Positions 8,947 to 41,571 of a stretch of DNA of 41,960 bases are shown piece by piece (within the stretch, counting starts at the first letter, position 1; the number at the start of each line of letters is the position of its first letter). The stretch is from a virus. The position numbers and the translations under genes were made by a program. The stretch is from IMG/VR virus record IMGVR_UViG_3300046471_000251, positions 1-41,960 of that record. The stretch is one strand, 5' to 3'. Below the pieces are notes generated by a model. It did no database searches and was not told the DNA's origin. It saw only the letters and a program-made list of their open reading frames with translations.

Positions 8947-9128
8947 CCCCCGCCCAACAAACAACCGTCAACCAGCACAAGTCCGAAGGCTTCACCGTAA
9001 TCCTCGAAGCCCGGGAGATCGTTCGCCTGACCAAGGGAGCCGACAAGCGCCTGGTACTGCCTGACGGCAGCGTGAAGCGCGGCAATCACATGAATGGACG
9101 GAATTCGGTAACTCGGGGGTGTGTATGA
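8943..9128 (+). CDS. Small phage hypothetical protein, 61 residues
   Basis: Starts at 8943 within the stop of the P-like gene (ATGA). The visible text (KSEGFTVILEAREIVRLTKG, KRLVLPDGSVKRG) suggests a small beta-rich fold. It lacks membrane segments and known motifs. Its stop is overlapped by the next start. It belongs to the early operon between replication and nin-like genes. Confidence 0.75.
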   Translation: MTPAQQTTVNQHKSEGFTVILEAREIVRLTKGADKRLVLPDGSVKRGNHMNGRNSVTRGCV

Positions 9129-9376
9129 GTGACGGACTTGGCGTGACCACACAAACGACCGTCTTCCTTTCAGTCGACAAGCTGGTCAAGGAAATGGATG
9201 CCGAAGACATCGGCGGCTTCTGCAGTGCCGTGGCCGAGCGACTCGACAAAGAGTTCAGTCAGCGCGCCTCAGCAGCATTAGAGTTCGCCGGCGGCCTGTC
9301 TGAGACCGGCGCGCGCTTCCTCGCTGAGGTAGTCACCAGCTTCTTCCAGCGTCAACCACGGGAGCCTCGCCCATGA
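9125..9376 (+). CDS. Small phage hypothetical protein, 83 residues
   Basis: The ATG at 9125 overlaps the previous stop, with GGGGGT just upstream; an in-frame GTG two codons earlier is less well placed. The protein is helical and acidic (VDKLVKEMDAEDIGGFCSAV), with a short basic end. No family recognised. Confidence 0.7.
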   Translation: MSDGLGVTTQTTVFLSVDKLVKEMDAEDIGGFCSAVAERLDKEFSQRASAALEFAGGLSETGARFLAEVVTSFFQRQPREPRP

Positions 9377-9489
9377 AACTCCCCATCCTGATCATCACCG
9401 TTACCTTGCTATGCACTGCCGTCCAGATCACTCACCCGGGTGTAGCTGAGAAGCCTGTGCAGGTTTATTCGGGGGTTCTGTTCCGATGA
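9373..9489 (+). CDS. 38-residue membrane or exported peptide
   Basis: ATG at 9373 overlaps the upstream TGA, and GGAG lies 9 bases before it. MKLPILIITVTLLCTAVQ is a signal-like or transmembrane segment, followed by a polar tail ending GVLFR. Its TGA overlaps the next ATG (ATGA). The overlap at both ends supports it being translated. Function unknown. Confidence 0.6.
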   Translation: MKLPILIITVTLLCTAVQITHPGVAEKPVQVYSGVLFR

Positions 9490-9686
9490 ATGCTCATCCG
9501 AAATTACCGATGCTCAAGGCGTTCACCGAGTTCATGCGCCGGAAGCCGAAGTCGCTTGAAACCGCGTATGCGCGTGCGTTCGAAGCGGGCTGGCAGGCCT
9601 GCGATTCCCGTAGGAGCGAACAAGTGGAAAAAGCGGCCGAAAGCGCCGTGCCGCAAGGGGTTGACTGTAGGAGCGAACGATCATGA
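9486..9686 (+). CDS. Small phage hypothetical protein, 66 residues
   Basis: Starts in the stop of the previous gene and ends in the start of the next. Residues 10-40 are helical and basic (FTEFMRRKPKSLETAYARAF), followed by GWQACDSRRS. The string GTAGGAGCGAAC occurs twice (about 9609 and 9669); the second copy supplies the ribosome binding site of the next gene. No family recognised. Confidence 0.65.
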   Translation: MNAHPKLPMLKAFTEFMRRKPKSLETAYARAFEAGWQACDSRRSEQVEKAAESAVPQGVDCRSERS

Positions 9687-10174
9687 CCGACTACACAGAA
9701 TTGAAGCGGCTGGCTAAGGCTGCGACCCCGGGCGAATGGGAGTGCCGCGAAGCTGAAGGCATGGCCGCTATCTGTCACGAGCATGGATGGGTTGCGGATG
9801 ATTTTAGTGGGCAGGCGCTCATCGACACTCGCTACATGGCCGCCGCCAATCCTGCCGCAGTACTTGAACTGATCGCCGATCTTGAGGCAGAAAGGCAGCG
9901 TCGATGGGATGGCAATGAGATCAGCTCCCGCGAGCATGCCGAAGAAGTGCGAAAGCTCAAAGCCGAGAATGAACAGCTTCGCAGGTCGCTGGAGGATTGC
10001 TCCGATTCTCTGCACAGCGAAATGCTGCAGAAGTTCGGCGGCCAGTTGCCGGACGATATGCATCCCGTGACGCGCCGCGAATACGACCGCGACATGGCGG
10101 AGGTTGCTGGTTATCGCGCGGCCTTGAGGGGTGTCGACCCTGACCTCGACACCCCTGCGGAGGCGCAATCATGA
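9683..10174 (+). CDS. Ead/Ea22-like protein
   Basis: A 163-residue protein with AGGAG upstream. The N-terminal pattern LAKAATPGEW ... YMAAANPAAVLELIADLE is the signature of Ead/Ea22-like phage proteins. Residues about 70-120 form a coiled coil (EEVRKLKAENEQLRRSLED). Family members are early, non-essential accessory proteins of lambdoid phages with no agreed function. Overlaps both neighbours by four bases. Confidence 0.8.
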   Translation: MTDYTELKRLAKAATPGEWECREAEGMAAICHEHGWVADDFSGQALIDTRYMAAANPAAVLELIADLEAERQRRWDGNEISSREHAEEVRKLKAENEQLRRSLEDCSDSLHSEMLQKFGGQLPDDMHPVTRREYDRDMAEVAGYRAALRGVDPDLDTPAEAQS

Positions 10175-10260
10175 AAATGATCGTGATCCTTTATGCGCTT
10201 GACCTGCCGATAGAGCACGAACTGCGCACCTACCTTCGTCGTCGTTGGAGGATGCGCTAA
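10171..10260 (+). CDS. 29-residue peptide upstream of ninB
   Basis: ATG at 10171 sits in the previous stop with GGAGG 9 bases upstream; the frame MKMIVILYALDLPIEHEL ends in a basic tail and a TAA that shares a base with the ninB ATG. It is hydrophobic at the start. It may be a real small protein or a coupling leader for ninB. Confidence 0.45.
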   Translation: MKMIVILYALDLPIEHELRTYLRRRWRMR

Positions 10261-10727
10261 TGGGTGAAGTCATCCACAAGCCTCGCCACTTCTGGGCGGC
10301 TGGTTCTGCGCGAATCCGCGACGTCTTCAAGCTGGCCTACCTGTTCGCCTTTGAGCTGTCCGCCGCCACTGCCGTAGAAATCATTGTCCGCCCGGTCAAG
10401 AGCCGCCGCACCCTGGAACAGAACGCCAAGCTCTGGGCCATGTTGGGTGATATCTCCCGCCAGGTTGAATGGCCGGTGAACGGCGTCATGCAGCGCCTCG
10501 ATGCCGAGGACTGGAAATCGCTGATGACCGCTGCCGCCCGACAGGAAGTGCGCATGGCTGCCGGTATCGATGGCGGCGTCGTGATGCTCGGCGTCAGCAC
10601 CAAGCGCATGACCGTCCGCGAACTGGGCGACGTGATCGAGTGCATGTATGCGTTCGGCGTCGACAAAAACATCGTCTGGAGCGAGCCGAAAGGGCAGATG
10701 CCAGAGTCATGGGAGGCAGCAGCATGA
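10260..10727 (+). CDS. ninB: NinB recombination protein
   Basis: I place the start at the ATG at 10260 (TAATG junction, GGAGG upstream), giving 155 residues, close to lambda NinB (146). Typical text: VKSRRTLEQNAKLWAMLGDI, VEWPVNGVMQRLDAEDWK, and a C-terminal MYAFGVDKNIVWSEP. In lambda NinB (Orf) binds single-stranded DNA and SSB and can replace RecFOR in Red recombination. It lies in the nin-like region with ninG downstream. Confidence 0.92.
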   Translation: MGEVIHKPRHFWAAGSARIRDVFKLAYLFAFELSAATAVEIIVRPVKSRRTLEQNAKLWAMLGDISRQVEWPVNGVMQRLDAEDWKSLMTAAARQEVRMAAGIDGGVVMLGVSTKRMTVRELGDVIECMYAFGVDKNIVWSEPKGQMPESWEAAA

Positions 10728-11029
10728 GCCATCAGTTCAAAGCGGGCGATCTGGCGCTGATCATCAACTCCATTAAGCGCCCTGAGAATGTCGGAAGGTC
10801 ATGCGATCTGGTGGCATTCATGGTTCCCGGTGAGCGTCTGGAGTTCAATTTTGATGGCTTCAAAACTATCACCCATATAGGGGAGAGCCCGGCGTGGCTT
10901 GTAGCTGGGAATGACGTGGTGGGCAGTAACGGAAAATCAGGATTCGCGCTTGTGCGTCCCGCTAACTTGATGCCCCTGCGCGACAGCTTCGCTCCCGAGC
11001 AAGCCAAGTCCCGCGAGGTGACCGCATGA
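10724..11029 (+). CDS. Phage hypothetical protein, 101 residues
   Basis: ATG at 10724 overlaps the ninB stop. It begins MSHQFKAGDLALIINSIKRP and continues beta-rich, with a C-terminal FALVRPANLMPLRD. The start resembles small SH3-like barrels common in phage accessory genes (a GDLALI strand followed by a basic turn). No membrane part. A longer upstream in-frame extension within ninB is ignored because of the ATGA junction. Confidence 0.7.
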   Translation: MSHQFKAGDLALIINSIKRPENVGRSCDLVAFMVPGERLEFNFDGFKTITHIGESPAWLVAGNDVVGSNGKSGFALVRPANLMPLRDSFAPEQAKSREVTA

Positions 11030-11136
11030 AGACCCTCAAGGCCCTCATTCGGGTCGCCTCATGCTTCGCCGCAATGATGGAATACGCGGCGCTCGAACCA
11101 TCAACGGCCCAGTTCCAGATCGGAGGTGGACTGTGA
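11026..11136 (+). CDS. 36-residue peptide between the 101-residue gene and ninG
   Basis: ATG at 11026 lies in the preceding stop and the frame ends in a TGA that overlaps the ninG GTG. It begins MKTLKALIRVASCFAAMM, a weak amphipathic or membrane helix, and ends QFQIGGGL. Double overlap supports translation; no function known. Confidence 0.5.
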   Translation: MKTLKALIRVASCFAAMMEYAALEPSTAQFQIGGGL

Positions 11137-11744
11137 TCGGACAGGCAGCCAAGAAGTCGCCACCAGCACGCAAGAAGAAGACCTGCGCCAATCCCGTCTG
11201 CGATATCCAGTTCGTACCGGCGCAGCTCGGGCAAAAGGTCTGCGGCTGGGCATGCGGCCTGGCCATTGCCCCGGCGAATCAGGACAAGGCGCGCAAGGCC
11301 ATTGAGCAACGCGAGCGTAGCGAGATCCGGGTTCGCAAGGAGAAGCTGAAGTCGCGCGGTGACCACATGCGCGAAACCCAGCAGGCATTCAACGAGTTCA
11401 TTCGGTGGCGCGATCAGCTGGCCGGGCACCTATGCATTTCCAGCGGCAAGCCATTGGACTGGAGCGGCAACGCGGTCGATGCAGGGCATTACCGCAGCGT
11501 TGGCTCGGCTCCGCACCTCAGGTTCGACGAACGCAATTGTCACGCTCAGAGCAAGCAGGACAACCGGTTCCTGTCGGGCAATGCTGTGGATTACCGGATC
11601 GGCCTTATCGCGCGCATTGGTCTGGAAGCGGTCGACGCGCTGGAGTCGGATCAGTCAGTCCGCAAGTACACCATCGAGCAGCTGCAAGAGCTCAAAGCGC
11701 ATTACCGAGCATTGGTCAGAGAATTGAAGGGGAGAGCGGCATGA
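11133..11744 (+). CDS. ninG: NinG (Rap) recombination protein, with altered zinc ligands
   Basis: GTG start at 11133 with GGAGGT 7 bases upstream gives 203 residues; lambda NinG has 204. An N-terminal zinc ribbon has Cys18, Cys23, Cys37 and Cys41. The core holds DAGHYRSVGSAPHLRF and NRFLSGNAVDYR, the NinG hallmark. Family members usually have CxxC pairs before and after this core; here they read CISS (Cys101, Ser104) and SKQD (Ser140, Asp143). NinG/Rap is a Holliday-junction resolvase that helps Red recombination. Whether the substitutions affect metal binding cannot be told from sequence. Confidence 0.9.
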   Translation: MIGQAAKKSPPARKKKTCANPVCDIQFVPAQLGQKVCGWACGLAIAPANQDKARKAIEQRERSEIRVRKEKLKSRGDHMRETQQAFNEFIRWRDQLAGHLCISSGKPLDWSGNAVDAGHYRSVGSAPHLRFDERNCHAQSKQDNRFLSGNAVDYRIGLIARIGLEAVDALESDQSVRKYTIEQLQELKAHYRALVRELKGRAA

Positions 11745-13784: not shown

Positions 13785-15191
13785 ATGACCACATCAAAAC
13801 CACGAATTCAGGTTCAAGACGGAAAGGTCGTCTCAGCAGACAGTCTTTCGAACATGGTTGCCAACATCGGCACCAATCGCGACAAGCGCTCGCACAGTCA
13901 ATTTGGTTTCGAGTTCGTCAATCAATTCGAGCTTGAGGCAGCGTATCAGTCGAACTGGATCGCTCGCCGTATCGTGGATAAGCCGAACGAAGATGCGTTG
14001 CGAGAATGGCGCGCATTCAGCGGCAAGCAGGCCAAGGACATTGCGAACGAAGAGCGTCGCCTGGGCGTGCAGCAAGCCTACCTCGATACGTGCTGCTGGG
14101 CTGACCTGTACGGCGGCGCGGCAATTCTGATGGTCACCGGGCAGAACCTCAGCTCACCGCTTGACCTGGACAAGATCAAGAAAGGCGGGTTGAAGAACCT
14201 GATCGTGCTCGACCGCTGGGATATTCAGCCCATCGATTTCAACATGACCGACCCGCTCAAGCCCAACTGGATGATGCCCGAGCACTACATGATGGTGAAC
14301 GGTACCCAGAAAATTCACCACAGCCACATCATTCGTCGCACTGGCGCTCGTCTGCCGCGTCGTATGCGCCTGTTCGAGCAAGGCTGGGGTGACAGTCGCC
14401 TTCGTCGTTGCATGTCCGACCTGCGCGATGTGGTGGCGACCAAGGGAGGCATTGCCTCACTGGTACTGGAAGCCAACGTCGATACGATCACCGTGAAGGG
14501 CCTCAAAAGCGCGCTTGCCAGCCCGCAGTGCGACAACGTCACCGAACGATATCGAATGTTCGGCATGATGAAGTCCATTGTGAACCTGGGGCTTCTTGAT
14601 GCTGAGAGCGAAGAGTTCGACCGCAAAAGCATCACGTTCTCCGGCCTCAGCCAGATCATGGAGCAATTCATGGTGTGGACTGCCGGCGCTGCGGAAATGC
14701 CTGTCACCGAATTGTGGGGGCAGTCAGCCTCTGGACTTAGCTCTACCGGTGAAGGCGATCTGAAGACCTATCACGGAACGATCAAGGGCAAGCAGGACGG
14801 CCAGATGCGGCTGGACCTCGAAGCGCTTGACCAGGTGCTGATCCGGTCCGCTCTGGGCTCATATCCGGATGACATCGAGTTTGAGTGGAACCCACTTGCT
14901 CAGACGTCCGGCATCGAACAGGCGCAAGAGGACCTTGCTGACGCCCAGGCCGACGCGCTGCACATTGAGAACCGTGTGATTCGCCCAAGCCATGCCATGC
15001 GGCGCGCTCAGGCGAAAGGCACCTACGCCATCACTGATGAGCAGATCGCGGCCCAAGAGAAGATCGAAAAGGATCAGGACGATGGCATTGGCGACGACGG
15101 CGAAGGCCTCCCCGGTTTCTCCCTTGGCGAAGCTGATGGCGACAAACAAGACGCTGATGGAAAAGCGGCCAAAGAAACCCCGAGGGCCTAA
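13785..15191 (+). CDS. Portal protein, DUF1073 family
   Basis: A 468-residue protein. The middle (WADLYGGAAILMVTGQNLSS, VLDRWDIQPIDFNMTDPL, MPVTELWGQSASGLSSTGEG) matches the DUF1073/phage portal family of contractile-tailed phages. The C-terminal 60 residues are acidic and polar. It forms the dodecameric ring at the capsid vertex through which DNA is packaged. The 5-prime end has only a weak GAGA before the ATG. The head-morphogenesis gene begins inside its end. Confidence 0.93.
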   Translation: MTTSKPRIQVQDGKVVSADSLSNMVANIGTNRDKRSHSQFGFEFVNQFELEAAYQSNWIARRIVDKPNEDALREWRAFSGKQAKDIANEERRLGVQQAYLDTCCWADLYGGAAILMVTGQNLSSPLDLDKIKKGGLKNLIVLDRWDIQPIDFNMTDPLKPNWMMPEHYMMVNGTQKIHHSHIIRRTGARLPRRMRLFEQGWGDSRLRRCMSDLRDVVATKGGIASLVLEANVDTITVKGLKSALASPQCDNVTERYRMFGMMKSIVNLGLLDAESEEFDRKSITFSGLSQIMEQFMVWTAGAAEMPVTELWGQSASGLSSTGEGDLKTYHGTIKGKQDGQMRLDLEALDQVLIRSALGSYPDDIEFEWNPLAQTSGIEQAQEDLADAQADALHIENRVIRPSHAMRRAQAKGTYAITDEQIAAQEKIEKDQDDGIGDDGEGLPGFSLGEADGDKQDADGKAAKETPRA

Positions 15192-16053
15192 ACCGGTCCG
15201 GCCGAGCGAAGAAGCGGAGCGGTATTACCGTGGTCAGCTTCGCTCGCTGGTACGCCTGATGGCTGGTGAGCTCGTTGCAGCGCTTGAGCCTGAGCTGAAG
15301 CGGTTAAAGCCGCAGTACATCGCGGACAGCGCTGTGACACTTGATGGCAGCTGGACTGATGAAATCCTCAAGGCAATTCGTGGCGTATCGCAGCGCTTCA
15401 CCTCGTCGTTGTTTGATGCTCAGGTGCAACGCGTTGCAGCGAGCACCATCAGTCGCGCCGAGGCCGATAACGCCGAAGACTTCCGCAACTCGATCAACAA
15501 AGCCGTAGGTATCGATTTCCAGTTGATCACCAAGCCCAAGGGCATGACCGATTACCTGGAAGCCTCCGTCGCCGAAAACGTCAACCTGATCAAGTCCGTC
15601 AAGACCGAGTATTTCCAGAAAGTGGAAACGATCGTGTTGGGCGGTATGAAAGGTGGCGCCGCTCCATCGGTCATTGCCAAGCAGATTCAGGAGCAGACGG
15701 GCATCACCGCTCGCCGCGCCAAGTTGATTGCGCGCGACCAGATGTCTCAGATCAACGCCGACCTGACAGAGAAGCGACAGGCTGCCGCGGGGATTGAATT
15801 CTATAAGTCAGAAGATGCCGGCGACGTTCGCGTTTCTGGCAACCCCGCTGGCAAATACCCCAACGCCAAGATCAGCTGTTACGGAATTGCCCGTCAGGAC
15901 ATTGGCTATGGACCTGGCGTGTACAAGGTCGGTGTCGGTGCTACATGGGCGGGGCAGTCTGGACTCAAACCAGGCAAGCACCACGTCCTCTGCCGCTGCT
16001 CCGCAATCGCCATGATTGAAGGCGTGAACTACTTCCCCGAAAAAAGCGGGTAA
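15136..16053 (+). CDS. Head morphogenesis protein, SPP1 gp7/MuF type
   Basis: A domain of about 300 residues: EAERYYRGQLRSLVRLM, TGITARRAKLIARDQMSQIN and a C-terminal KHHVLCRCSAIAMIE. This is the MuF/SPP1 gp7 minor head protein signature. Start choice is uncertain: ATGs at 15082, 15136 and 15157 all overlap the portal gene; I take 15136, which begins MATNKTLMEKRPKKPRG, as the conserved part starts soon after. Minor head proteins of this class enter the capsid with the portal and help DNA delivery. Confidence 0.88.
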   Translation: MATNKTLMEKRPKKPRGPKPVRPSEEAERYYRGQLRSLVRLMAGELVAALEPELKRLKPQYIADSAVTLDGSWTDEILKAIRGVSQRFTSSLFDAQVQRVAASTISRAEADNAEDFRNSINKAVGIDFQLITKPKGMTDYLEASVAENVNLIKSVKTEYFQKVETIVLGGMKGGAAPSVIAKQIQEQTGITARRAKLIARDQMSQINADLTEKRQAAAGIEFYKSEDAGDVRVSGNPAGKYPNAKISCYGIARQDIGYGPGVYKVGVGATWAGQSGLKPGKHHVLCRCSAIAMIEGVNYFPEKSG

Positions 16054-31284: not shown

Positions 31285-31734
31285 ATGGAAACGAAGCGCA
31301 AGCGGAAATTCAGCGACAAGATGGAGAAGTTCTGTCTTGCCTATGTTGAAACAGCCAACGCCGCAGAGTCATACCGCATCGCCTACAGCACCTCCAACAT
31401 GGCGGCAGCCACGATCGGCCGCGAAGGTTACAAGTTACTGCAGCTCCCTCAGATCCAAGAACGTCTCGGCGAATTGCGCGAGCGGGTAATGGACCGCCAC
31501 CAGATCACCGTAGATTCACTTCTTCTTGAGCTCGAAGAAGCGCGAAAAGCTGCACTTGGCGCAGAGACTCCGCAGACCTCTGCGGCGGTGGCGGCCACCA
31601 TGGGCAAGGCGAAGCTCATGGGTCTGGACAAGAAGATTGTGGAAATCTCCGGCAAGAATGGAGGCGACATCAAGACTACCTCTACGGTCACAGTGTCCGA
31701 GAAGGTCATGAACTCGATCATTGATCGCTTATGA
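31285..31734 (+). CDS. Terminase small subunit
   Basis: A 149-residue protein. METKRKRKFSDKMEKFCLAY, then ETANAAESYRIAYSTSNMAA and a helical middle (QIQERLGELRERVMDRHQIT) fit the terminase small subunit family (Terminase_2/XtmA): an N-terminal HTH and a central oligomerisation helix. It recognises the packaging site and loads DNA on the large subunit. Stop and next ATG overlap. Confidence 0.9.
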   Translation: METKRKRKFSDKMEKFCLAYVETANAAESYRIAYSTSNMAAATIGREGYKLLQLPQIQERLGELRERVMDRHQITVDSLLLELEEARKAALGAETPQTSAAVAATMGKAKLMGLDKKIVEISGKNGGDIKTTSTVTVSEKVMNSIIDRL

Positions 31735-33341
31735 ATGAGCTGCTCGATTGGGATTTGATGAGCAGCGAAGAAAAGCAAGCGGCGAAACTGGTAAGCGAAC
31801 ACTCGCCGTTGGCCTTCATGCGCGTATGGTTTCAACTCAACCAAGGAATGAAGTTTCTTTGTAACTGGCACCATCGATACATGGATCTCACCGCAAGGCA
31901 GGTTCTTTCGGGCGAATTGAAGAACGTAGTCTTCAACATGCCGCCAGGCGGGACAAAGACCGAATACTGGTCAATCCACCTTCCAGCCTACGTGATGACA
32001 AAATTCGAGCGCACACGCAACCTCAGCGTGTCCTACTCGAAGTCCTTAGTCGAAGAGAACTCCAATCGAATCAAGTCCATCATCACCAGTTCTGAATATC
32101 AGGATTTGTGGCCGTGCAGCCTGGGCAAGGCGGATGTGGCGAACTGGATAATCACTGACGAAGACGGCCGCAACAAACATCAGATTTTTAGCCGCTCCAC
32201 CGGCGGGCAAATCACCGGCGTCCGGGGTGGCTACATTTCCGGCGGTTTCACCGGCTTCGTTAACCTAGATGACCCCGAGAAGGCTGATAGCGCCTTTAGT
32301 GCAACGATGCGCGCCAAAGCCCAGCGCATCGTCACCAACACATTGCGCAGCCGTCGGGCATCTCCTGACACGCCCGTCATTTGCACTCAGCAACGGCTCC
32401 ATACCGATGATGTGTCCGGCTTCCTTCTGAAGGGAGGCATGGGCCTGGACTTCGCACACATCAAGGTCCCGGCACTTGTAACGCGCGACTACATAGAGAG
32501 TTTGCCTGCCGAGATTCGAGAGCACGCCGAGCGCGATGTCTTCAGCGGTCCATCCATCGTGCGCGGCGGGATTGAATATTGGTCGTACTGGCCGGCGAAA
32601 GAATCAGTCGTCGATCTCATGGCGCTGTGGGATCGCGATTCCTACACGATGGTCAGTCAATACCAGCAGGAACCTGTCGCGCTAACTGGCGGAATGATCG
32701 ACGCAGACTGGTTCAAAACCTACGAGCAGCTGCCGTTCATGGTCTGGCGTGGCGTGTATGTCGATACGGCACAAAAGACCGGCGAGCAGCATGACTACTC
32801 GGTTTTCAGTCATTGCGGCCTGGGTATCGACGGCCATCTGTACATCATCGAAGTCGTCCGCGGGAAGTGGGACGCAGGAGATCTTGAGACGGAAGCCCTT
32901 CGGGTCTGGCAGCGCTGGCAGCCGTGGGATCAGTTCAGGCCCGCGGCACTCCGCTACATGCGGGTCGAGGACAAGTCCTCGGGCACCGGACTGATTCAGA
33001 CCATAAGCAAGAAGGGCTCCATCCCAATAGAGCCGCAACCACGCGGACCCGCTGCGAACAAGGTAACTCGCTGCATGGACGCAGTGCCGTGGCTGAAGTC
33101 TGGCCGCGTTTACGTGCCAGCCATCTATGACGCGCAGGGAAGCAAGATCGAGCACGTCAGAGACCATCGGGGCGAAGCAGTAGCAACAACCGATTGGGTT
33201 GTTCCATTCCTGACTGAGGCATCGGCCTTCACGGCCGACGACAGCCACGCGTTCGACGATCAGGTTGACACGATCTTCGACGCAGTCGCCGACATGCTCA
33301 TCAGCGCCGGCGGCGACTTTTTCTCCAGCAACTGGCTTTAA
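31731..33341 (+). CDS. Terminase large subunit
   Basis: A 536-residue protein. Walker A-like VVFNMPPGGTKTEYWSI (Lys76; the usual PPRxGKT is replaced by PPGGTKT), Walker B GFVNLDDPEKAD (about 176-182), and a C-terminal RNase H-like nuclease starting VYVDTAQKTGEQHDYSVF. It cuts concatemers and drives DNA into the capsid. Its position after the tail genes, not before the portal, is unusual. The gap to the tail spike holds a short bulged hairpin but no gene. Confidence 0.95.
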   Translation: MNELLDWDLMSSEEKQAAKLVSEHSPLAFMRVWFQLNQGMKFLCNWHHRYMDLTARQVLSGELKNVVFNMPPGGTKTEYWSIHLPAYVMTKFERTRNLSVSYSKSLVEENSNRIKSIITSSEYQDLWPCSLGKADVANWIITDEDGRNKHQIFSRSTGGQITGVRGGYISGGFTGFVNLDDPEKADSAFSATMRAKAQRIVTNTLRSRRASPDTPVICTQQRLHTDDVSGFLLKGGMGLDFAHIKVPALVTRDYIESLPAEIREHAERDVFSGPSIVRGGIEYWSYWPAKESVVDLMALWDRDSYTMVSQYQQEPVALTGGMIDADWFKTYEQLPFMVWRGVYVDTAQKTGEQHDYSVFSHCGLGIDGHLYIIEVVRGKWDAGDLETEALRVWQRWQPWDQFRPAALRYMRVEDKSSGTGLIQTISKKGSIPIEPQPRGPAANKVTRCMDAVPWLKSGRVYVPAIYDAQGSKIEHVRDHRGEAVATTDWVVPFLTEASAFTADDSHAFDDQVDTIFDAVADMLISAGGDFFSSNWL

Positions 33342-33407: not shown

Positions 33408-35435
33408 ATGGCTGACCAGACCCAGCGGCTCGAGATCGCCACCGTGAAAGCGGAAGTCGGTAGCAACATTCTGTTCCGGTTTGCCAATGACCCGACATCG
33501 AGCCCCACTATTCCTACAGACTCTGGGTCAATCCCTAACCTCAAGCAGGTTATTGCAGAAATCCAAGAAGACGGCGCAGAGAAGATCAGCATTGCCACCA
33601 CGATCTATCAAAGCGCTGCGGCTGGCCTGGCGGCGACTGCGGATGGCGGCATCTACCTAGTGCAGTCCGCTGACGCTGATGAAATCTATACCGTATGGAA
33701 AAACCAGGGTGGAGCAGCAGTAAACACTGGTAAAACAGCGATGTCCTCCCAAGCTGTGCAGGCGGCACTCGATGCCTCCAATGAGGCGGCGCAAGCTGCT
33801 GAAGATGCGGCTGATATCGCAACTGCACGCACTTTGGGGCTCCTCTCTCCTAATTCCGTCGCGCCCGTAGTACGAGACAACGGGCTTCCTCTGCAGGCTG
33901 GTGATCGCTACTTCAACACCACCGAGCAGGCGGAATACATCTACACCTCTGCCGGGTGGGCGGCGAACGAGAGCCAGCAGGCTATCGCTGATATCGAAGA
34001 CGCTACCGACCCCACGAAAGGAGCGGCGCTTATCGGGCGCGGCTTCCCGGTGGTTGAAAGCATCGCGGCACTCAGAACTTTGTCAAAAAGCTCTCCTGCG
34101 AAGAACGCGTTTGTCGCTAGCTACTACGGCGACGGTAAAACTGGCGGCGGCCCGTTCCGTCTTGACATCACAGACACCACGACCGCTGAAAACTGGGGCA
34201 CAGTGATTGTTGCGGACGATGGCGGACGCTGGAAGCGGCCGGCATCTTTTACCTTCAACGTCGCGGAATTTGGTGCGCGAGGCGATAACACAAGCGACGA
34301 TATCATCTCGATTAATAGAACAATTTCAGCGATGCCCGCTACCGGTAATCGGCTGCTGTACTTCCCAAACGCGTCTTACCGAACATCGGCAATGTTCAGC
34401 GTGCCAAATGGTTGCAACACCTTTTGCGAGCCTGGGGTCGTATTCCAGCGCTGGGGCGGCGCCACCGACTTTAACTGCGTCCAGGTGAATGGGAATGGCA
34501 AGCGCCATGTTTTTGGGATTATAGACTCCTATAAGGATGCCATCGTAATTCGCGGAAACACGAACTGGGTAGAGTTTCAGACAATTTCAAATTGCGGGCG
34601 AGGCGTTGTCATCAGCGCAGTCTCTGCAAACAATCTCGACAACAGAGTCAACGGTTTGCAAATCGGCAAATGCACGGATGCAGTAGTGTTCGAGCAGAAC
34701 GGCAAAAGGACCCAACAGGGCAATGAGATACGCGTCAATTTTGTTTCGGAATCGCTGAATCATTGCGTTTACGATGATCTAGGTACGCATACGGAAACGT
34801 CGAACTGGGATTCAAACCTCGTAGAGTTTATGGCGACAGACCCGCTCTTCAAGCCGGGTGCTACTCTACTTTTGAATCGTTCAGCTTTCGCTGTTAGCAA
34901 CATAAATTTCAGCGTGAAGAGCTGGTGCGGCGGCTTTAACGGAGGAGACGGGACGATGACCGTCATTAGCGGCTCTTTCTTGGCGTCCCAGTACGAGTTT
35001 AGTTTCGCAGCAAATCCAACACCAGCAGACATGGTCGGAGCTGGCGCGAGAGCCTCATTTGGATCGTGTCAATGCAAGCTCCTGCGAAATTCGAACCTTG
35101 GCGCAGGAACAAGCATCCCTGCCGTACCAGGAAGCACCGATGTATTCAACGGCGGCGTCGCCCTGGTTACGAAGAAGTTCAGGATATCCGTGGCTGTACC
35201 GGCCTTGGCGACTGGCGGCCAATCAGCTCGTTTTTTTGATCACATTCTTTCCCAGAATGGCTTTGGAGGAAAATTCAAAATCGCTTCAATAGAGCGCAAT
35301 GGAAACCCCTACATCATTTCCATCAATGAGCAAGGTAACGTTTTGTTGGGGCGTGTCGCGCTTTGGTTCTACAATCCATCCGCAGCAACGATTCAAGCAC
35401 AGACTATAAGCTTGGTGATTGAGGCTGGGGATTGA
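33408..35435 (+). CDS. Tail spike with pectate-lyase-like beta helix
   Basis: A 675-residue protein with AAGGA upstream. Residues 1-200 form the particle-binding part, with helical stretches. Residues about 225-265 hold YYGDGKTGGGPFRLD; at about 282 the pattern FNVAEFGARGDNTSDD marks the start of a pectate-lyase-3-like right-handed beta helix (about 285-560), typical of spikes that bind and often cut surface polysaccharide. The C-terminus is a beta-rich trimerisation domain. Substrate cannot be told; host O-antigen or exopolysaccharide is likely. The glycan genes lie just downstream. Confidence 0.88.
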   Translation: MADQTQRLEIATVKAEVGSNILFRFANDPTSSPTIPTDSGSIPNLKQVIAEIQEDGAEKISIATTIYQSAAAGLAATADGGIYLVQSADADEIYTVWKNQGGAAVNTGKTAMSSQAVQAALDASNEAAQAAEDAADIATARTLGLLSPNSVAPVVRDNGLPLQAGDRYFNTTEQAEYIYTSAGWAANESQQAIADIEDATDPTKGAALIGRGFPVVESIAALRTLSKSSPAKNAFVASYYGDGKTGGGPFRLDITDTTTAENWGTVIVADDGGRWKRPASFTFNVAEFGARGDNTSDDIISINRTISAMPATGNRLLYFPNASYRTSAMFSVPNGCNTFCEPGVVFQRWGGATDFNCVQVNGNGKRHVFGIIDSYKDAIVIRGNTNWVEFQTISNCGRGVVISAVSANNLDNRVNGLQIGKCTDAVVFEQNGKRTQQGNEIRVNFVSESLNHCVYDDLGTHTETSNWDSNLVEFMATDPLFKPGATLLLNRSAFAVSNINFSVKSWCGGFNGGDGTMTVISGSFLASQYEFSFAANPTPADMVGAGARASFGSCQCKLLRNSNLGAGTSIPAVPGSTDVFNGGVALVTKKFRISVAVPALATGGQSARFFDHILSQNGFGGKFKIASIERNGNPYIISINEQGNVLLGRVALWFYNPSAATIQAQTISLVIEAGD

Positions 35436-35478: not shown

Positions 35479-35504
35479 GAGAGGAGCCCAGGCGGGCTCC
35501 TCTC
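35479..35504. terminator. Long hairpin between convergent tail spike and glycosyltransferase genes
   Basis: An eleven-base perfect stem, GAGAGGAGCCC (35479-35489)/GGGCTCCTCTC (35494-35504), loop AGGC. No long T tract on either side. Its place between convergent genes suggests a bidirectional terminator. Confidence 0.7.
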
Positions 35505-35515
35505 ACGACTTAGGT

Positions 35516-36352
35516 TTAATGATTAAGCGGGCTACCTGGGATTGTTGAGAGTTCTGCAATCAGCTCGACTATGCGGGAGTCAGACTCTTTGTTTGCGTAG
35601 CTGTCGCGATGATTGAAGAAGTAGTCATTGTCGTACCGCTTCAGCCGCTCTTCCTTCGTTGCGTTCATCGCGCCGCCACGAAGTTTTTTCTTAGTCTCAA
35701 ATTCTTCTTTGGACTTCAAGATGTAGTGATTGATGTGGATTTTTTCAGAGGCATTGACCTTGGTCTGGCCGTCCGCCTCTTCATCAATGTTGTCCTCATC
35801 AAAATTACCGTCAGCATAAAGACCTTGAAGAAGGTCTCCCTTGTGACAACTGTTTATCTGTTGAATATCCCGATTGCGGTAGATGGTTTTGAACCACAGG
35901 TGCTCGGGGTGATTTTCTGGCGCGCAATTCTGAAATCGGGTGGTTACCGGAATATCTTCGTACTTATCCAGATAGGATGATCCGAAGATCTTTTGGTTTA
36001 CCGCAATCGCTGAAACGCTTACGGGAACAGTAGCAAGATAGTCGTTGATGTTATTGCCGTCGCGCAGCGTTATAAATTCATCAATATCGATGTATGCGAC
36101 AAATTCATATTCTTCGGGTATTTTGTTCGCAGGATTGTTGTACGCCGAAAGCTGCGGCGAAACGCCTTCAACAGTAGGCCACTTGATGATTTCAACGCTA
36201 CTTGATAGCGAGCTCAAGACATCCTGAGGACTGTCGGATGAATCATTGTCGTATAGAAAGATTCGGTCAAATCCTAAAGCGAGGTGATAAGACGCCCACT
36301 CCAACAGATAACTGGCCTCGTCCTTGGCTATTGCCACGATGCATGATTTCAT
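35516..36352 (-). CDS. Glycosyltransferase, GT2/GT92-like
   Basis: I take the ATG at 36352 (278 residues, starting MKSCIVAIAKDEASYLLEWA), as that is where the family starts, with GGAAG upstream; a TTG at 36412 overlaps the upstream stop and would add 20 residues. It shows the GT-A start and FDRIFLYDNDSSDSP, then EYEFVAYIDIDEF with a DxD metal-binding motif. Later it is charged and helical. It transfers a sugar to a glycan using a nucleotide sugar. No signal or membrane segments. AT-richer than the tail genes. It is the second gene of a leftward pair with the WbsX-RgpF protein. Confidence 0.82.
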   Translation of the reverse strand: MKSCIVAIAKDEASYLLEWASYHLALGFDRIFLYDNDSSDSPQDVLSSLSSSVEIIKWPTVEGVSPQLSAYNNPANKIPEEYEFVAYIDIDEFITLRDGNNINDYLATVPVSVSAIAVNQKIFGSSYLDKYEDIPVTTRFQNCAPENHPEHLWFKTIYRNRDIQQINSCHKGDLLQGLYADGNFDEDNIDEEADGQTKVNASEKIHINHYILKSKEEFETKKKLRGGAMNATKEERLKRYDNDYFFNHRDSYANKESDSRIVELIAELSTIPGSPLNH

Positions 36353-36408
36353 TTTCTTATCTTCCGCTATCAAGTTGCTATTTCCTTCTTCAGCTTTTCT
36401 TGCAAACT

Positions 36409-38547
36409 TCAACCCTGAGCGCCTACAGAATCAAGATTCGTATTCGCAGAAGAAGTGTTAGTTGGTATTAGTGAAGCGTTCGGAGCAGCTTTGGGCGCCT
36501 CTGTAGGAATGATTCCCGTTTTGTAGCCGATACCTTCGACCACGCTGCAGAACAGACGTTCAATCCCATGAGCGTTTGTGCCATCGGCCAAGCCTTTCTC
36601 TACGTCAAAATCCTGAGGCCCGAGATGAAGGATTCGATTCATAGCGGCTTGCCGGAACCAGAACATCGACCCTGCAGGGAAGTGGCCATACTGGAAGTTG
36701 ATAGCCATCTGAGAGGACAGTTGATCGACGATTTCAGTATCAAATGTCATGTTGTGGTCGGTGTGCTTCACCAGGTACTTCTCGGGTACGAGAATGCCTT
36801 TAAGGTGATCATTTCGGAATCGAGAGATTATATCTTTCACAAGGGTTACAGATCCCAGAAGGGATTCGTATATCTCGTTCCGAATGTTATCTCCGTCATT
36901 TCTGTAAGCACTTTTCTTAGAGTGAATCTTACAAATTGCCATGTAATTAAGAGAGTGGATTGCTCTAAGAGTTTCGATGAACGGAAGAACGTCTCGACCC
37001 CTGTTTTCCACTAAGGTTACTCGGGACTGCGGGAAATCGCCTTTGATTTTAGAAATAATCGCAGAATCGGTTGTGGTGACATAGAGGTCAAATCCGATCT
37101 TTGTCAGTTTCTTGATATAGCTCTTTATTTCTTCCCACAGTTCGGAATAATGAATGTGCAAAATAACTGCAATTTCATTGTTCTTAACAATTTTCTGGTT
37201 GAGGCTAGGCTTCACCGCTTTCTTGTCGAACTGGCTTAGAACGGTCCTGGTCGTTTCAAGGTAGGCGTATCCATACTTACGGTCTGGCTCAAGGTGCGTC
37301 CCTTCGGCCCATTCGTTCCAGGCGTTTACGAAAACTAGCTTTTCGTCGGCACTGTACTTGGGGTTATTCAGGGAATTAGTACAGATCGACGAGAGCCATT
37401 GCTTGTACTTCAGCAGCGAAAATCCATGAAAAATGTGGCTCGCGTTTTGTTTGCGAGCGGTATTGTCCCAGGAAAGCATCGCAGCCCGGAAAAGCTTGTA
37501 TTCAGGCTCAGGGCTTTTTACTGCGTTGTCTACGACTTGGTCGTAGCTGAAAACATGCCCTGTAAATTCAGGATTGGTGATGCTGACCTCGCTTTGTATA
37601 TCCCCGCTGACGACAGTATGCGGCGGAAATTCGACCGAGGCATCAAAACCAAAGGGTTCGGGCGACTTGATGCCAAATGTCTGAGCGCAAACAAGATAAA
37701 TTCCAGGGAAGCCGTTTTTGACCATTTCCGCTCGCCACAGATCTCCTGTTTCTTTCATTTCAGGGATAATGTTCGGACGGTAGATAATCAGAACTGGGCA
37801 ACCGTTTACCTTGATGTACCGAGGATCCTTGAAGTACGGCATGAGGTGGTTCAGAAAGGCAGCAGAATCTTCCATGCTGTGGTTCTGCGCAATCAATACA
37901 TCGTTTTCCAAGCCATCCCATCGGCGCGACCAGTTTTCATTGGCCCAAGTGAGACAGAACGGCATGTCGACTTTTTTATTCGCAAGCATCGCCTTGAGGG
38001 GGGTCTCCATCAAGGTTTTACCATCGAACCAATAGAAGTAGTAGCTGAAGCCGTGCACGCCATATTCTTTGGCAAGACGAGCCTGCTCTTCTTGAACCTC
38101 AGCTACGCGGAGATCGTAATAACCGGAGTGGATAGGGCAGTGTGGGTGGTTATGACCGACATAGTTAGGAACGGCTTTGCCAACGTTCGTCCACTCGGTG
38201 AATCCTTTGCCCCACCATTCATCGTTCTCTGGGAATGGGTGGAATTGCGGAAGATAAAAGGCAATGAGTTTAACGGCTGGGTCGGGAGCGCGCTTCTTGA
38301 CGTACTTACCGAATTCCTCTTTCGTGTCATCAAATGTGATGGTGGGGATTTCTGACGGAATAATCATGGGGGCATGCAAGCCAATCGGGCCCCGTTTCAG
38401 CCGGTCCTGAGCGAGTGCGATGTTGAAACCGATCGTGTTGGCCATCGCTGGATTTTCCAGCTGAGCCTTTTTATAAAGATCGATTGCCACTGCGTACTTT
38501 TTGTCTCTGAAGGAAGCATTTGCCTCCGATAGTAATGTCTTCGTCAT
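36409..38547 (-). CDS. TPR-WbsX-RgpF multidomain glycan protein
   Basis: A 712-residue protein. Residues 1-60 are TPR-like (SEANASFRDKKYAVAIDLYK). About 90-440 is a WbsX domain (GH99-like fold): LIAFYLPQFHPFPENDEWWG, ANENWSRRWDG and NAWNEWAEGTHLEPDRKYG. About 465-690 is a RgpF-like rhamnan synthesis domain (VILHIHYSELWEEIKSYIKK, ENRGRDVLPF, KIHSKKSAYRND, FPAGSMFWFR). Such proteins are encoded in bacterial O-antigen and capsule loci. The start ATG at 38547 has only a weak GGAC. With the glycosyltransferase it should alter a surface glycan. Its base use is clearly AT-richer than the phage genes around, a sign of separate origin. Confidence 0.85.
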   Translation of the reverse strand: MTKTLLSEANASFRDKKYAVAIDLYKKAQLENPAMANTIGFNIALAQDRLKRGPIGLHAPMIIPSEIPTITFDDTKEEFGKYVKKRAPDPAVKLIAFYLPQFHPFPENDEWWGKGFTEWTNVGKAVPNYVGHNHPHCPIHSGYYDLRVAEVQEEQARLAKEYGVHGFSYYFYWFDGKTLMETPLKAMLANKKVDMPFCLTWANENWSRRWDGLENDVLIAQNHSMEDSAAFLNHLMPYFKDPRYIKVNGCPVLIIYRPNIIPEMKETGDLWRAEMVKNGFPGIYLVCAQTFGIKSPEPFGFDASVEFPPHTVVSGDIQSEVSITNPEFTGHVFSYDQVVDNAVKSPEPEYKLFRAAMLSWDNTARKQNASHIFHGFSLLKYKQWLSSICTNSLNNPKYSADEKLVFVNAWNEWAEGTHLEPDRKYGYAYLETTRTVLSQFDKKAVKPSLNQKIVKNNEIAVILHIHYSELWEEIKSYIKKLTKIGFDLYVTTTDSAIISKIKGDFPQSRVTLVENRGRDVLPFIETLRAIHSLNYMAICKIHSKKSAYRNDGDNIRNEIYESLLGSVTLVKDIISRFRNDHLKGILVPEKYLVKHTDHNMTFDTEIVDQLSSQMAINFQYGHFPAGSMFWFRQAAMNRILHLGPQDFDVEKGLADGTNAHGIERLFCSVVEGIGYKTGIIPTEAPKAAPNASLIPTNTSSANTNLDSVGAQG

Positions 38548-38570
38548 GTCCGTGCTCTGCTAAGTGTCGT

Positions 38571-38599
38571 TTGGCGGTGGCAGATCTAATTTTTATAAT
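38571..38599 (+). promoter_or_regulatory. Strong sigma-70-like promoter upstream of the methyltransferase-like gene
   Basis: TTGGCG (38571-38576), a 17-base spacer and a perfect TATAAT (38594-38599) on the plus strand. On the other strand TATAAA (38597-38592) could be a -10 for the leftward glycan genes. The remaining 38606-38902 holds no supported gene and would be a long 5-prime leader. Confidence 0.65.
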
Positions 38600-38902
38600 G
38601 TCAGCGGCCCATCTAAATCTGAGCCGTTACGCTTGCATAAAATTGCGCATTGTGGGGTCGTTTTGCCATTAGGTCAATTGCGTAATCCGGCGAATCGCCT
38701 TGAGTGGGGCTATCCCGACGGAATGCCCGAAGCCTTGATCTGCAAGGGTTTCAAGGAATGTGCAAGTCACTGAACGAGATGTCGCGCAGCTTTTGTCGCG
38801 CCCAACGGCGTTCCACCATTAGCGCATCCTTCTGCCGGCGATTCTTAAGCAGCAATCTGTCAATCGGAGCGTAAAATTTTGTGATCGAAGCGGCCCCATG
38901 GT

Positions 38903-39622
38903 ATGACTTATGCTTTATGGTCGATATCACGAAAAGGATCACAGGCGGTGGAAGCATCTTACGCTGTGGAAGTACCTGAGGAAATTCAAGTGGGCAAGCG
39001 GAAAGCGTGGAGCGTCTCTAGCATTCCCACGATTCCCCATATAGATCCTAGCGGTCTCGAGCTGCTGCAGAAAAAGATGCTCAGATGCAAAGTGTTCCTG
39101 GAGTACGGCGGAGGCGGGAGCACTGTATTTGCTGCAACGCATGGCCCTGCTTCGATATTCACGGTCGCCACTGACGCAGATTTTCTAAAGGCGGTTTCCG
39201 ACCGACTGGCACAGGTGTCTTACCCGCTCAAAAAGAAACGCCCAAAATTCGCCCCCATATACGTCAACGTAGGCCCTACAGGGAACTGGGGGTTTCCTGC
39301 TGATCCGTCTACGGCAGCGAGCTGGCCCAAGTACAGCGTCCACGCGTGGGATAGCCTGCAACTGGCCAAAGTTACGCCGGATCTGATTTTGATCGATGGT
39401 CGGTTCAGGGTTGCATGTTTTCTGGCGTCTCTTATTTTCGCTAGGCCAGGATGCACTATTCTGTTCGATGACTACGCTGACAGGCCTCAATATCATAGCG
39501 TTGAGAAATTTTTGAAGCCGGTATCAATCGCCGGTCGTATGGCCGAGTTTGTAATCCCGCCAAATATCATGAGCCACAAATTGATACTGGAACTGGTCAA
39601 GGCATCAACATCCGTTGAGTAA
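38903..39622 (+). CDS. Class I methyltransferase-like protein of the glycan cargo
   Basis: Up to 239 residues; the first 15 lack a good ribosome binding site, and GTG at 38948 (with AAGGA upstream) is an alternative start. The fold pattern includes KVFLEYGGGGSTVFAATHG (motif I-like), then YVNVGPTGNWGFPADPSTAA, PKYSVHAWDS and LILIDGRFRVACFLASLIFA before ILFDDYADRPQYH. It looks like proteins near polysaccharide loci that are classed as SAM-dependent methyltransferases; the cofactor loop GGGGS is consistent with this. It may modify a sugar chain. It has its own promoter and terminator. Confidence 0.7.
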   Translation: MTYALWSISRKGSQAVEASYAVEVPEEIQVGKRKAWSVSSIPTIPHIDPSGLELLQKKMLRCKVFLEYGGGGSTVFAATHGPASIFTVATDADFLKAVSDRLAQVSYPLKKKRPKFAPIYVNVGPTGNWGFPADPSTAASWPKYSVHAWDSLQLAKVTPDLILIDGRFRVACFLASLIFARPGCTILFDDYADRPQYHSVEKFLKPVSIAGRMAEFVIPPNIMSHKLILELVKASTSVE

Positions 39623-39652
39623 CCAGTTCTAACCCCCCCCCACATATTATCG

Positions 39653-39677
39653 AGCCCGCAAACGCGGGCTTTTTTTC
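39653..39677 (+). terminator. Intrinsic terminator between the methyltransferase-like gene and the endolysin
   Basis: Stem AGCCCGC (39653-39659)/GCGGGCT (39664-39670), loop AAAC, followed by a long T run. It ends the cargo transcript; late transcription must read through to reach the lysis genes. Confidence 0.92.
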
Positions 39678-39693: not shown

Positions 39694-40203
39694 ATGGCAC
39701 GAATTTCTGAAGCGCAGGCGGGCGGGCGAAATGTCCTCGCCTTTCTTGATCTACTCGCATGGTCGGAACTGGGGTCCAGCAACCTGAGGCTGTCAGACGA
39801 CGGCTACAACGTCATCGTGACCGGCACTGACGGCAAGCTCGAGTTGTTCACCGACTACAGCGTTCACCCGTTCGCCGGTGGCCGCAAGTCCAAGGTCTTC
39901 AGCAAGAGCGGGCAGACATCGAACGCATCGGGACGCTACCAGTTCATGCTCAAGGACTACGTGCATTACCGCGATCAGCTGAAACTGCCGGACTTTGGCC
40001 CTGTTAGTCAGGACCGATGGGCGATTCAGCTAATCAAGGAGCGCAAGGCTCTGGACGATATCAAGGCTGGCCGCATCGAATCGGCGATCCAGAAGTGCCG
40101 GAACATCTGGGCCAGTCTGCCGGGCGCGGGCTACGGGCAGCGCGAACACAAGTTTGAAGATCTGCTTGCCCAATACAGCGCGGCGGGCGGGGTGCTCGCA
40201 TGA
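39694..40203 (+). CDS. R: Endolysin, lambda R-type lytic transglycosylase
   Basis: A 169-residue protein with GGAGA upstream. It aligns along its length with lambda R: AFLDLLAWSELGSSN (catalytic Glu25), GYNVIVTGTDGKLELFTDYS, ASGRYQFMLKDYVHYRDQLK, KCRNIWASLPGAGYGQREHK. No signal peptide, so it depends on the holin at 13514-13732. It cuts the glycan strands of peptidoglycan between MurNAc and GlcNAc to give anhydro ends. Its stop overlaps the Rz start. Confidence 0.95.
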   Translation: MARISEAQAGGRNVLAFLDLLAWSELGSSNLRLSDDGYNVIVTGTDGKLELFTDYSVHPFAGGRKSKVFSKSGQTSNASGRYQFMLKDYVHYRDQLKLPDFGPVSQDRWAIQLIKERKALDDIKAGRIESAIQKCRNIWASLPGAGYGQREHKFEDLLAQYSAAGGVLA

Positions 40204-40700: not shown

Positions 40701-40930
40701 GACGCCAATATCTCCAGCCGCGAGTGCATTGCGGCTTCCATCAGCACATACAGTTCCTCGATGTCGCTGTCGCGCAGCGCTCCGGCAACCTCGATCCCTC
40801 GCACGAATCCCTCCGCGTAACTTCCAGCCTTACGCACGCCGGCGTCATCGGTCGCCACCTCGATCATCGACATCAGCCGCATGACTTCCTCGCGATACTT
40901 GGGCGGCAACGCCCCCTCATCCAAAATCAT
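40694..40930 (-). CDS. Small phage hypothetical protein coupled to SRAP
   Basis: A 78-residue protein, acidic and helical (MILDEGALPPKYREEVMRLM, EGFVRGIEVAGALRDSDIEE). Its start overlaps the SRAP stop by four bases, so the two form an operon. No family recognised. It may share SOS control with SRAP. Confidence 0.75.
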   Translation of the reverse strand: MILDEGALPPKYREEVMRLMSMIEVATDDAGVRKAGSYAEGFVRGIEVAGALRDSDIEELYVLMEAAMHSRLEILASQ

Positions 40931-41571
40931 ACTTCCTCCCTTGGCTGCACCGACATCCGATCGGCCGGATACTGCCGCATGAATTCCATGCTGTCGCTGG
41001 CGGGCGCGTCGAGCCAGTCGTTGTACAGGCCGGCCGGCAGAATCACGACCATGCGCTTTTCATCGTCAGGCTTGTGGTAATCCCGCATGAAGATGTGGTC
41101 ATCGGCGTTGATCGTCAGCATCGAATAGCTGTGCACGATCTCGCCTTCGGGATTCTTCCACCACTCCCACAGTCCGGCGATGCCCAGTGCCTTACCATCA
41201 GTGCGGGCGATGCGCGTGGCGATGGCCTTGCCAGTGCGCCAGTCAGGCTCGTAGATCGCCGCGGCCGGGATGATGCAGTGTTGAGCATTCTTCCAGGCGC
41301 TCCGAAACGATGGCTTCTTGGCTGCCGTCTCTGAGCGGGCGTTGTAGGTGCGCCGGGCAATCTTCGTGTCCTTGCTCCAGCCTGGAATCAGCCCGAACGA
41401 GCCTTCTACCAATTCCAGAGCCGGGCCGGGCTCATCCTGCTCACCGGCGGGGCGCCGAATGAACGGCCCCATGTACGTCGGCCACAAATCCAATCGTCCC
41501 TGCTCAAATGGCTCAACGCCGAACGCCTTCACCAACTGCGCGCGTGATGGTGCTTCGTAATGGCTGCACAT
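40927..41571 (-). CDS. SOS response-associated peptidase (SRAP, YedK-like)
   Basis: A 214-residue protein. The catalytic Cys2 (MCSHYEAPS) is next to the start, as needed after Met removal; Asn77 (TYNARSET), Glu108 (AAIYEPDW) and His166 (YHKPDDEKRMVVILP) complete the SRAP active-site set. The family forms a crosslink with abasic sites in single-stranded DNA through Cys2 and protects replication forks. A LexA box lies about 60 bases upstream of the ATG. Phage copies may protect replicating phage DNA, by inference. Confidence 0.93.
   Translation of the reverse strand: MCSHYEAPSRAQLVKAFGVEPFEQGRLDLWPTYMGPFIRRPAGEQDEPGPALELVEGSFGLIPGWSKDTKIARRTYNARSETAAKKPSFRSAWKNAQHCIIPAAAIYEPDWRTGKAIATRIARTDGKALGIAGLWEWWKNPEGEIVHSYSMLTINADDHIFMRDYHKPDDEKRMVVILPAGLYNDWLDAPASDSMEFMRQYPADRMSVQPREEV

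Follow-up and report, generated by a model that had tools for sequence, protein, structure and literature searches.

What are three glycan-related genes doing between the tail spike and the endolysin of a Pseudomonas phage? The question is posed by the block at positions 35516-39622 of the IMG/VR record IMGVR_UViG_3300046471_000251, which in its entirety constitutes the window, i.e., the whole stretch of 41,960 bases analysed here. An initial annotation, made from the letters alone, had taken this block for surface-glycan modification cargo, by which the lysogen alters the polysaccharide that the spike recognises and excludes related phages. Our analysis leads to a related proposal, to which we assign a probability of roughly 0.6: judged by their homologs, the three genes are lysogenic-conversion cargo that alters an O-polysaccharide of the ABC-transporter type in the lysogen. 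The block is a real, well-delimited and probably functional cargo, and the sequence comparisons suggest that this phage family probably changes the coat of its host cells. The features needed for the argument are these:

31731-33341, plus strand: terminase large subunit gene, terL (phrog_38, E 8e-100); conserved left neighbour, used as the bait for relatives.
33408-34034, plus strand: conserved N-terminal part of the spike (39-76% identity by tblastn in about 50 relatives).
34035-35435, plus strand: divergent C-terminal part of the spike (match to Pect-lyase_RHGA_epim and to beta-helix PDB chains).
35479-35504, no strand: perfect 11-bp inverted repeat without a T-tract, between the convergent spike and GT92 genes.
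35516-36412, minus strand: GT92 / Glyco_tranf_2_4 glycosyltransferase, 298 aa (Glyco_tranf_2_4, E 3e-16; GT92, E 1e-15).
36409-38547, minus strand: TPR-WbsX-RgpF protein, 712 aa (WbsX, E 1e-132; RgpF, E 7e-35).
38548-38902, no strand: intergenic region between two divergent transcription units, with one weak sigma70-like match per strand (plus, 38571-38599; minus, 38677-38649).
38903-39622, plus strand: class I S-adenosylmethionine (SAM) methyltransferase-like protein, 239 aa (profile match to 3cvo, E 6e-53).
39652-39671, plus strand: terminator hairpin with a T-tract just upstream of the endolysin gene; conserved right border of the slot.
39694-40203, plus strand: endolysin gene (phrog_90 endolysin, E 1e-57), up to 93% identical in relatives; conserved right neighbour.

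The gene calls of the initial annotation and the position of the block, between the spike gene (33408-35435, plus strand) and the endolysin gene, were borne out. The same is true of its AT-richness, with GC contents of 0.45-0.51 (0.450, 0.478 and 0.512 for the GT92, WbsX and methyltransferase-like genes, respectively) against 0.57-0.60 in the neighbours (terL, 0.566; endolysin, 0.596; Rz, 0.619), and of its domain assignments, which come from Pfam for the first two products and from the profile match to 3cvo for the third. The GT92 protein may truly start at residue 21 (MKSCIVAIAKDEASY) rather than at the listed TTG.

Is the block a part of the phage's standard equipment or an exchangeable insert? 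Some 55 phages with terminase large subunits 83-93% identical to that of the window were collected from IMG/VR and Pseudomonas genomes, and an endolysin search added a further set; the close relatives are prophages in Pseudomonas proteolytica, P. rhodesiae, P. fontis, P. lactis, P. juntendi and Pseudomonas sp. NFACC02. In every terminase relative long enough to read, the gene 3' of terL encodes a spike whose N-terminus is conserved and whose tip diverges. At the nucleotide level, similarity to the window extends through terL to spike codons 20-209, is then lost, and comes back at 39652-39670 in the best-conserved relatives; the left border of the exchanged block therefore lies within the N-terminal part of the spike, where blastn homology stops at 33469-34034, and in an alignment of ten phages conservation begins at the hairpin, with no similarity upstream of it. 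The slot is nearly empty in L038, where the spike stop codon, the hairpin and the endolysin gene lie within about 60 bases. L008 and L014 share 90% identity as far as the end of the spike gene and 97% identity past the slot, but the genes between these two stretches are unrelated; in L017 and L023, which are 98% identical after the slot, both the spike tip and the slot differ. These breaks and swaps bear out the earlier view of the block as exchangeable cargo. It resembles a moron in consisting of non-structural genes inserted into a conserved gene order and absent or different in relatives. As for signals of its own transcription, the conserved terminator is present and two genes lie on the opposite strand, and the sigma70-like promoter matches are no more numerous over the whole scanned region than expected by chance. 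The inverted repeat at 35479-35504 is possibly a two-way terminator; it went unflagged in the terminator scan.

The spike itself was described earlier as a beta-helix protein, which is likely but unproved. Its N-terminal half, presumably the anchor to the virion, matches PHROG families of tail fibres, spikes and exopolysaccharide depolymerases, and residues 283-330 resemble Pect-lyase_RHGA_epim (E 1e-5, just below the Pfam cut-off) and beta-helix PDB chains (E 1e-6 to 1e-5), so the C-terminal part is probably a beta-helix receptor-binding or depolymerase region; beyond residue 350 or so, domain and profile searches returned no significant match. A search for close relatives of the tip gave distant partial matches only. 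Among phage pairs, 12 share a tip, 12 share a cargo and four share both (Fisher p 1e-5). Strict coupling of tip and cargo is nevertheless not claimed, because three of the four sharing pairs are alike throughout and L008 and L014 provide a counterexample.

What do the relatives keep in the same place? Among the 49 relatives with a readable gene after the spike, 24 carry a slot gene whose product matches a glycan or cell-surface enzyme, as follows (the cargo of L019, L042, L049, L055 and L057 was assigned by BLAST to scanned members):

L003, L049: GT61.
L007: Caps_synth with TPR.
L009: methyltransferase like that of the window.
L010: AlgX-like SGNH.
L012, L045: GT2_4.
L014, L016, L019, L021: AT3 (in L021, just 3' of the first lysis gene).
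L015: MBOAT with a partner.
L020: Wzy_C (below the Pfam cut-off).
L026: C5-epimerase.
L033: LicD with a nucleotidyltransferase-like neighbour.
L034: heparinase II/III.
L041, L042, L057: hexapeptide acyltransferase.
L046, L055: DUF6492.
L051: GT92, 31% identical to the GT92 protein of the window.
L058: DXD glycosyltransferase.
L155: O-acetyltransferase.

The cargo genes of the relatives mostly have a GC content of 0.42-0.50, against a mean of 0.60 in terL. Two DSM strains are lysogens of this family, P. proteolytica DSM 15321 (AT3 in the slot) and P. rhodesiae DSM 14020 (Wzy-like cargo). As a control, 55 proteins encoded past the lysis cassette of the same phages turned out to include integrases, SOS-response-associated peptidases (SRAP), polymerase, ABC and IMS proteins and one identified glycosyltransferase, among the best 25 of 43 matched families, the others matching at most one protein each. 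The surface-glycan role attributed to this place is thus sustained by the phage family at large, in which such enzymes recur in the slot and are almost absent past the lysis cassette. Unnamed slot proteins of L017, L052, L023 and L025, with 8-10 hydrophobic segments and AT-rich genes, could be new membrane enzymes of a polymerase- or GtrC-like kind; those of L017, L023 and L025 have no PHROG match, and the two scanned against Pfam (L017 and L025) have no match there either. L008 carries a 2OG-Fe(II) oxygenase in the slot, and about a dozen relatives lack clear cargo. In L041, a TIR-domain protein with a weak ThsB-like PADLOC match (14862-15731) is encoded beside the hexapeptide acyltransferase; defence genes may thus be among the cargo that the slot accepts. 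PADLOC gave no match for the three proteins of the window, and a defence system was rejected as an explanation.

The neighbourhood of the slot also bears on whether the enzymes could decorate the spike or the virion itself rather than the cell. Their genes adjoin the spike gene and may be swapped together with its tip, which would suit such a role. The GT92 and WbsX-RgpF genes, however, run opposite to the late operon, which is the orientation one would expect of genes that serve the prophage, the AT3, MBOAT and polytopic membrane proteins of the relatives act on membrane-linked glycans, and the kinship of the block is to O-polysaccharide assembly (see below); we give decoration of the virion very little credence.

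The link to O-polysaccharide comes from the largest gene. Its 712-aa product consists of a TPR-like N-terminus, a WbsX domain (residues 94-432) and an RgpF-type glycosyltransferase domain (residues 443-671). WbsX or RgpF relatives were found in 25 of 399 Pseudomonas genomes; the best five chromosomal ones, proteins of 930-1010 aa, are 57-62% identical to the phage protein over about 620 residues, and a gene cluster is common to their loci. In L194 this cluster encodes a dTDP-glucose dehydratase, RmlD, RmlC and a Wzm/Wzt-like ABC exporter and, going by gene content, is an O-polysaccharide cluster of the ABC-transporter kind (rmlBDAC-wzm-wzt). The phage protein is therefore akin to the proteins of rml/wzm/wzt clusters, and the proposed connection to O-polysaccharide is strengthened by this close relationship to assembly proteins of the host genus. 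The host proteins are built in the order Methyltransf_11, coiled-coil-like stretch, WbsX, RgpF; the phage protein retains the WbsX and RgpF parts (62%) without the methyltransferase and the coiled-coil-like part. Its TPR-like N-terminus resembles that of a P. juntendi protein, whose TPR-WbsX-RgpF gene is directly followed by a GT2_4 gene, in the same order as in the window, next to genes that cluster with rmlBDAC. The earlier statement that the WbsX-RgpF set differs from gtrABC and oac is correct, but the fusion is not phage-specific, since a type of host protein has it as its C-terminal part.

These similarities invite the question of whether the block is a piece of a host polysaccharide locus, recently acquired and without a phage function. 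Its AT-rich composition resembles that of some host O-polysaccharide genes, the protein is shortened relative to the host fusion, and one copy only of the exact gene set was found. A passenger, on the other hand, would hardly account for reading frames that are open without stops, for intact domain cores, or for a slot that has been refilled repeatedly with the same functional class, and we regard this explanation as quite improbable. A scan of viral contigs for the exact set found one WbsX relative, L002, and no GT92 or methyltransferase relative (by exact peptide patterns, which detect close relatives only). L002 is a T7-like contig with an integrase-like gene, in which a stand-alone WbsX/GH99-like gene is convergent with a virion structural-type gene (7902-11241); this unrelated phage is an independent echo of the gene arrangement in the window. 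Not counted were MT836985 (L004) and MT835848 (L005), which are filed under human-gut bacteriophage but resemble polysaccharide loci of bacteria.

The chemistry of the WbsX domain is less straightforward than its name implies. Sequence searches for solved homologs gave none at E<=1 for either the WbsX-RgpF or the GT92 protein. A structural model of the former (pLDDT 72) has its best Foldseek matches, over the WbsX domain, among endo-alpha-mannosidases of glycoside hydrolase family 99 (GH99; E 2e-7 to 1e-5); its weak matches to GT-A enzymes probably concern the RgpF part. In a weak profile match to GH99 (E 0.03-0.06), Glu412 and Glu415 of the phage protein (WNEWAEG), invariant in all aligned proteins, align with Glu333 and Glu336 of 4ad1 (FNEWHEG), which are the positions mutated in entries titled E333Q and E336Q. 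The domain (window 37228-38280) and its counterparts in L194-L204 thus look like a TIM barrel of the GH99 type in which the two catalytic glutamates are retained, rather than like a classical glycosyltransferase. Because of this fold match and residue alignment the Pfam name 'glycosyltransferase WbsX' is to be used cautiously. It could follow that WbsX is a retaining endo-glycosidase or transglycosidase, by which nascent O-polysaccharide is shortened or joined anew while still in the cytoplasm, the glycosyltransferase parts rebuilding the end. Besides the fold and the aligned glutamates, records of plasmid-borne relatives, labelled 'glycoside hydrolase family 99-like', speak for this; but the confidence of the model is limited, its TM-score to the target is about 0.55, the sequence similarity is not significant on its own, and a plain hydrolase would be odd in a domain fused to a glycosyltransferase in O-polysaccharide assembly clusters. 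We consider this version unlikely. The GH99-like identity of WbsX is a separate biochemical question that arises from the same genes, and the real activity seems unsettled.

The third protein is, by fold and motif, class I SAM-methyltransferase-like. Although it has no Pfam match, its model (pLDDT 67) retrieves 3cvo (E 7e-16) and then many SAM methyltransferases in Foldseek, and the glycine-rich motif I (LEYGGGGST) is present; 3cvo itself is a methyltransferase-like solved protein of unknown function. A relative that is 50% identical occupies the slot of L009/L158 and occurs there alone; therefore, the methyltransferase-like protein need not act with the products of the two larger genes. Its cellular relatives point elsewhere: over the aligned domain it is 34-37% identical to the C-terminal domain of TPR-GT41 proteins. 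Such proteins, which measure about 1,100-1,200 aa and end in a methyltransferase-like domain, are encoded among flagellar genes in L215 (9572-13138, directly next to a flagellin gene) and in L216-L220; from their domains and neighbours, they are possible combined glycosyltransferase-methyltransferases for flagellin. This resemblance makes the target of the cargo uncertain, and would agree with a cargo that acts on flagellin or some other glycoprotein of the surface and perhaps thereby keeps out phages that depend on the flagellum or alters host interactions. The relatives of the two larger genes, however, are found in rml/ABC-exporter polysaccharide clusters and not at flagellin, the methyltransferase homolog stands by itself in the L009/L158 slot, and other slot occupants (AT3, MBOAT, Wzy-like, LicD, C5-epimerase, heparinase) suggest polysaccharides, which leaves a flagellar target distinctly unlikely.

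Conversion of an ABC-exported O-polysaccharide accounts best for these observations, and the way in which it might proceed we infer as follows. The genes, whose exchange slot between spike tip and lysis genes is common to the whole family, would be expressed from the prophage, and their products would act in the cytoplasm on lipid-linked O-polysaccharide, before its export by the Wzm/Wzt route of P. fluorescens-group hosts; no recognised transporter or flippase domain is found in any of the three products. The WbsX-RgpF protein, as a host assembly protein minus the methyltransferase and the coiled-coil-like part, would compete with or replace the host protein and add or transfer sugars. The GT92 enzyme would attach one more sugar, and the chain would be modified or capped by the methyltransferase-like protein. 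The altered O-polysaccharide of the lysogen would then be bound less well by the phage's own spike and by related phages. Exclusion of related phages is a reasonable expectation by analogy, such exclusion having been reported both for D3 and, in other bacteria, for O-acetylation (cited in PMC13123978). Mutants of Burkholderia gladioli resistant to the lipopolysaccharide phage KS12 map to wbsX and wzt of the O-antigen cluster (PMC13391952), and so a WbsX gene matters for phage receptors. Several facts weigh against the proposal: the cellular relatives of the methyltransferase-like protein are domains of GT41-type proteins among flagellar genes and not O-polysaccharide genes; L008 and L014 keep the spike with different cargo, so that spike and cargo need not match; and in about half of the relatives the slot is without cargo or holds a gene that is either unknown or not glycan-related.

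The phage as a whole encodes a CI-like repressor, O- and P-like replication proteins, a portal, a head protease, a sheath and a tape measure, as well as terminase subunits, the tail spike, endolysin and Rz, on account of which it is taken to be temperate and contractile-tailed. Its terminase genes (31285-33341) come after the tail genes, directly 5' of the spike gene and far from the portal gene (13785-15191). Behind the lysis genes lies a SRAP gene (40927-41571), which recurs in L147, L148 and L151 and in two control proteins.

How does the block compare with known conversion systems? The gtrABC operons of P22-like phages (epsilon34, P22) are likewise prophage O-antigen-modifying genes next to a tailspike whose N-terminus is kept and whose tip is variable (tailspike, gene 19; gtr operon, genes 20-22; PMC2629481), and since this arrangement is classical there, the idea of spike-adjacent conversion is not new. 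The window differs in having no GtrA flippase, GtrB or polytopic GtrC-type protein (Pfam, PHROGs and NCBIfam return GT92/GT2_4, WbsX-RgpF and nothing for the third product, and the GT92 gene has no partner flippase gene); it has cytoplasmic-looking enzymes akin to ABC-transporter-type assembly, and its slot, upstream of the lysis genes, accommodates enzymes of many unrelated types. Part of the WbsX-RgpF model also matches GtrB in Foldseek (E 1e-4), which we ascribe to no more than a common GT-A fold. Conversion by O-acetylases (oac of Sf6 and Sf101; D3) is similar in that the O-antigen receptor is modified by a phage-borne gene, and several relatives hold AT3, MBOAT or O-acetyltransferase genes in the same slot, but the slot of the window phage has no acyltransferase. 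Among cellular proteins, the coiled-coil polymerase/terminator proteins of ABC-transporter O-antigens (E. coli WbdD, Klebsiella O7 ORF6 and Raoultella WbbB) share the layout of the Pseudomonas host protein, which is encoded beside rml and wzm/wzt, ORF6 having the same plan of methyltransferase, coiled coil and glycosyltransferase modules (PMC11231755). The phage copy differs from them in lacking the methyltransferase and the coiled coil, hence the terminator module of WbdD/WbbB-like chain terminators, in its short TPR-like N-terminus, and in the separate, unrelated methyltransferase-like gene alongside. The B. gladioli wbsX gene resembles it in belonging to a wzt cluster in which mutations give resistance to a lipopolysaccharide phage; that gene, however, is chromosomal, encodes a much longer protein, and acts through loss by mutation instead of being supplied by a phage.

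What is new is the gene set, its connection with O-polysaccharide of the ABC-exported kind, and the finding of a slot with defined borders in which many unrelated surface enzymes occur. No description of the slot was found in the open-access literature; subscription papers lay outside the search, and priority is accordingly uncertain. Tentatively, and with more doubt than confidence, one may go further and see in the slot a receptor-rewriting locus that swaps tips and receptor-modifying enzymes, together or separately, with the enzymes of the window supplying a terminator-less polymerase/transglycosidase module that would subvert ABC-dependent O-polysaccharide; O-antigen conversion by such a module was not found described for phages in the same open-access literature.

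A general and testable rule results for this family of Pseudomonas phages: surface-glycan enzymes are kept and swapped next to the spike gene. The content of the slot may be read as a catalogue of receptor changes useful to phages, and its natural pairs (one spike with different cargo; an empty and a filled slot) would suit tests of lysogen protection. Prophage conversion would thereby be extended from Wzy-type O-antigens, modified by gtr and oac, towards ABC-exported ones.

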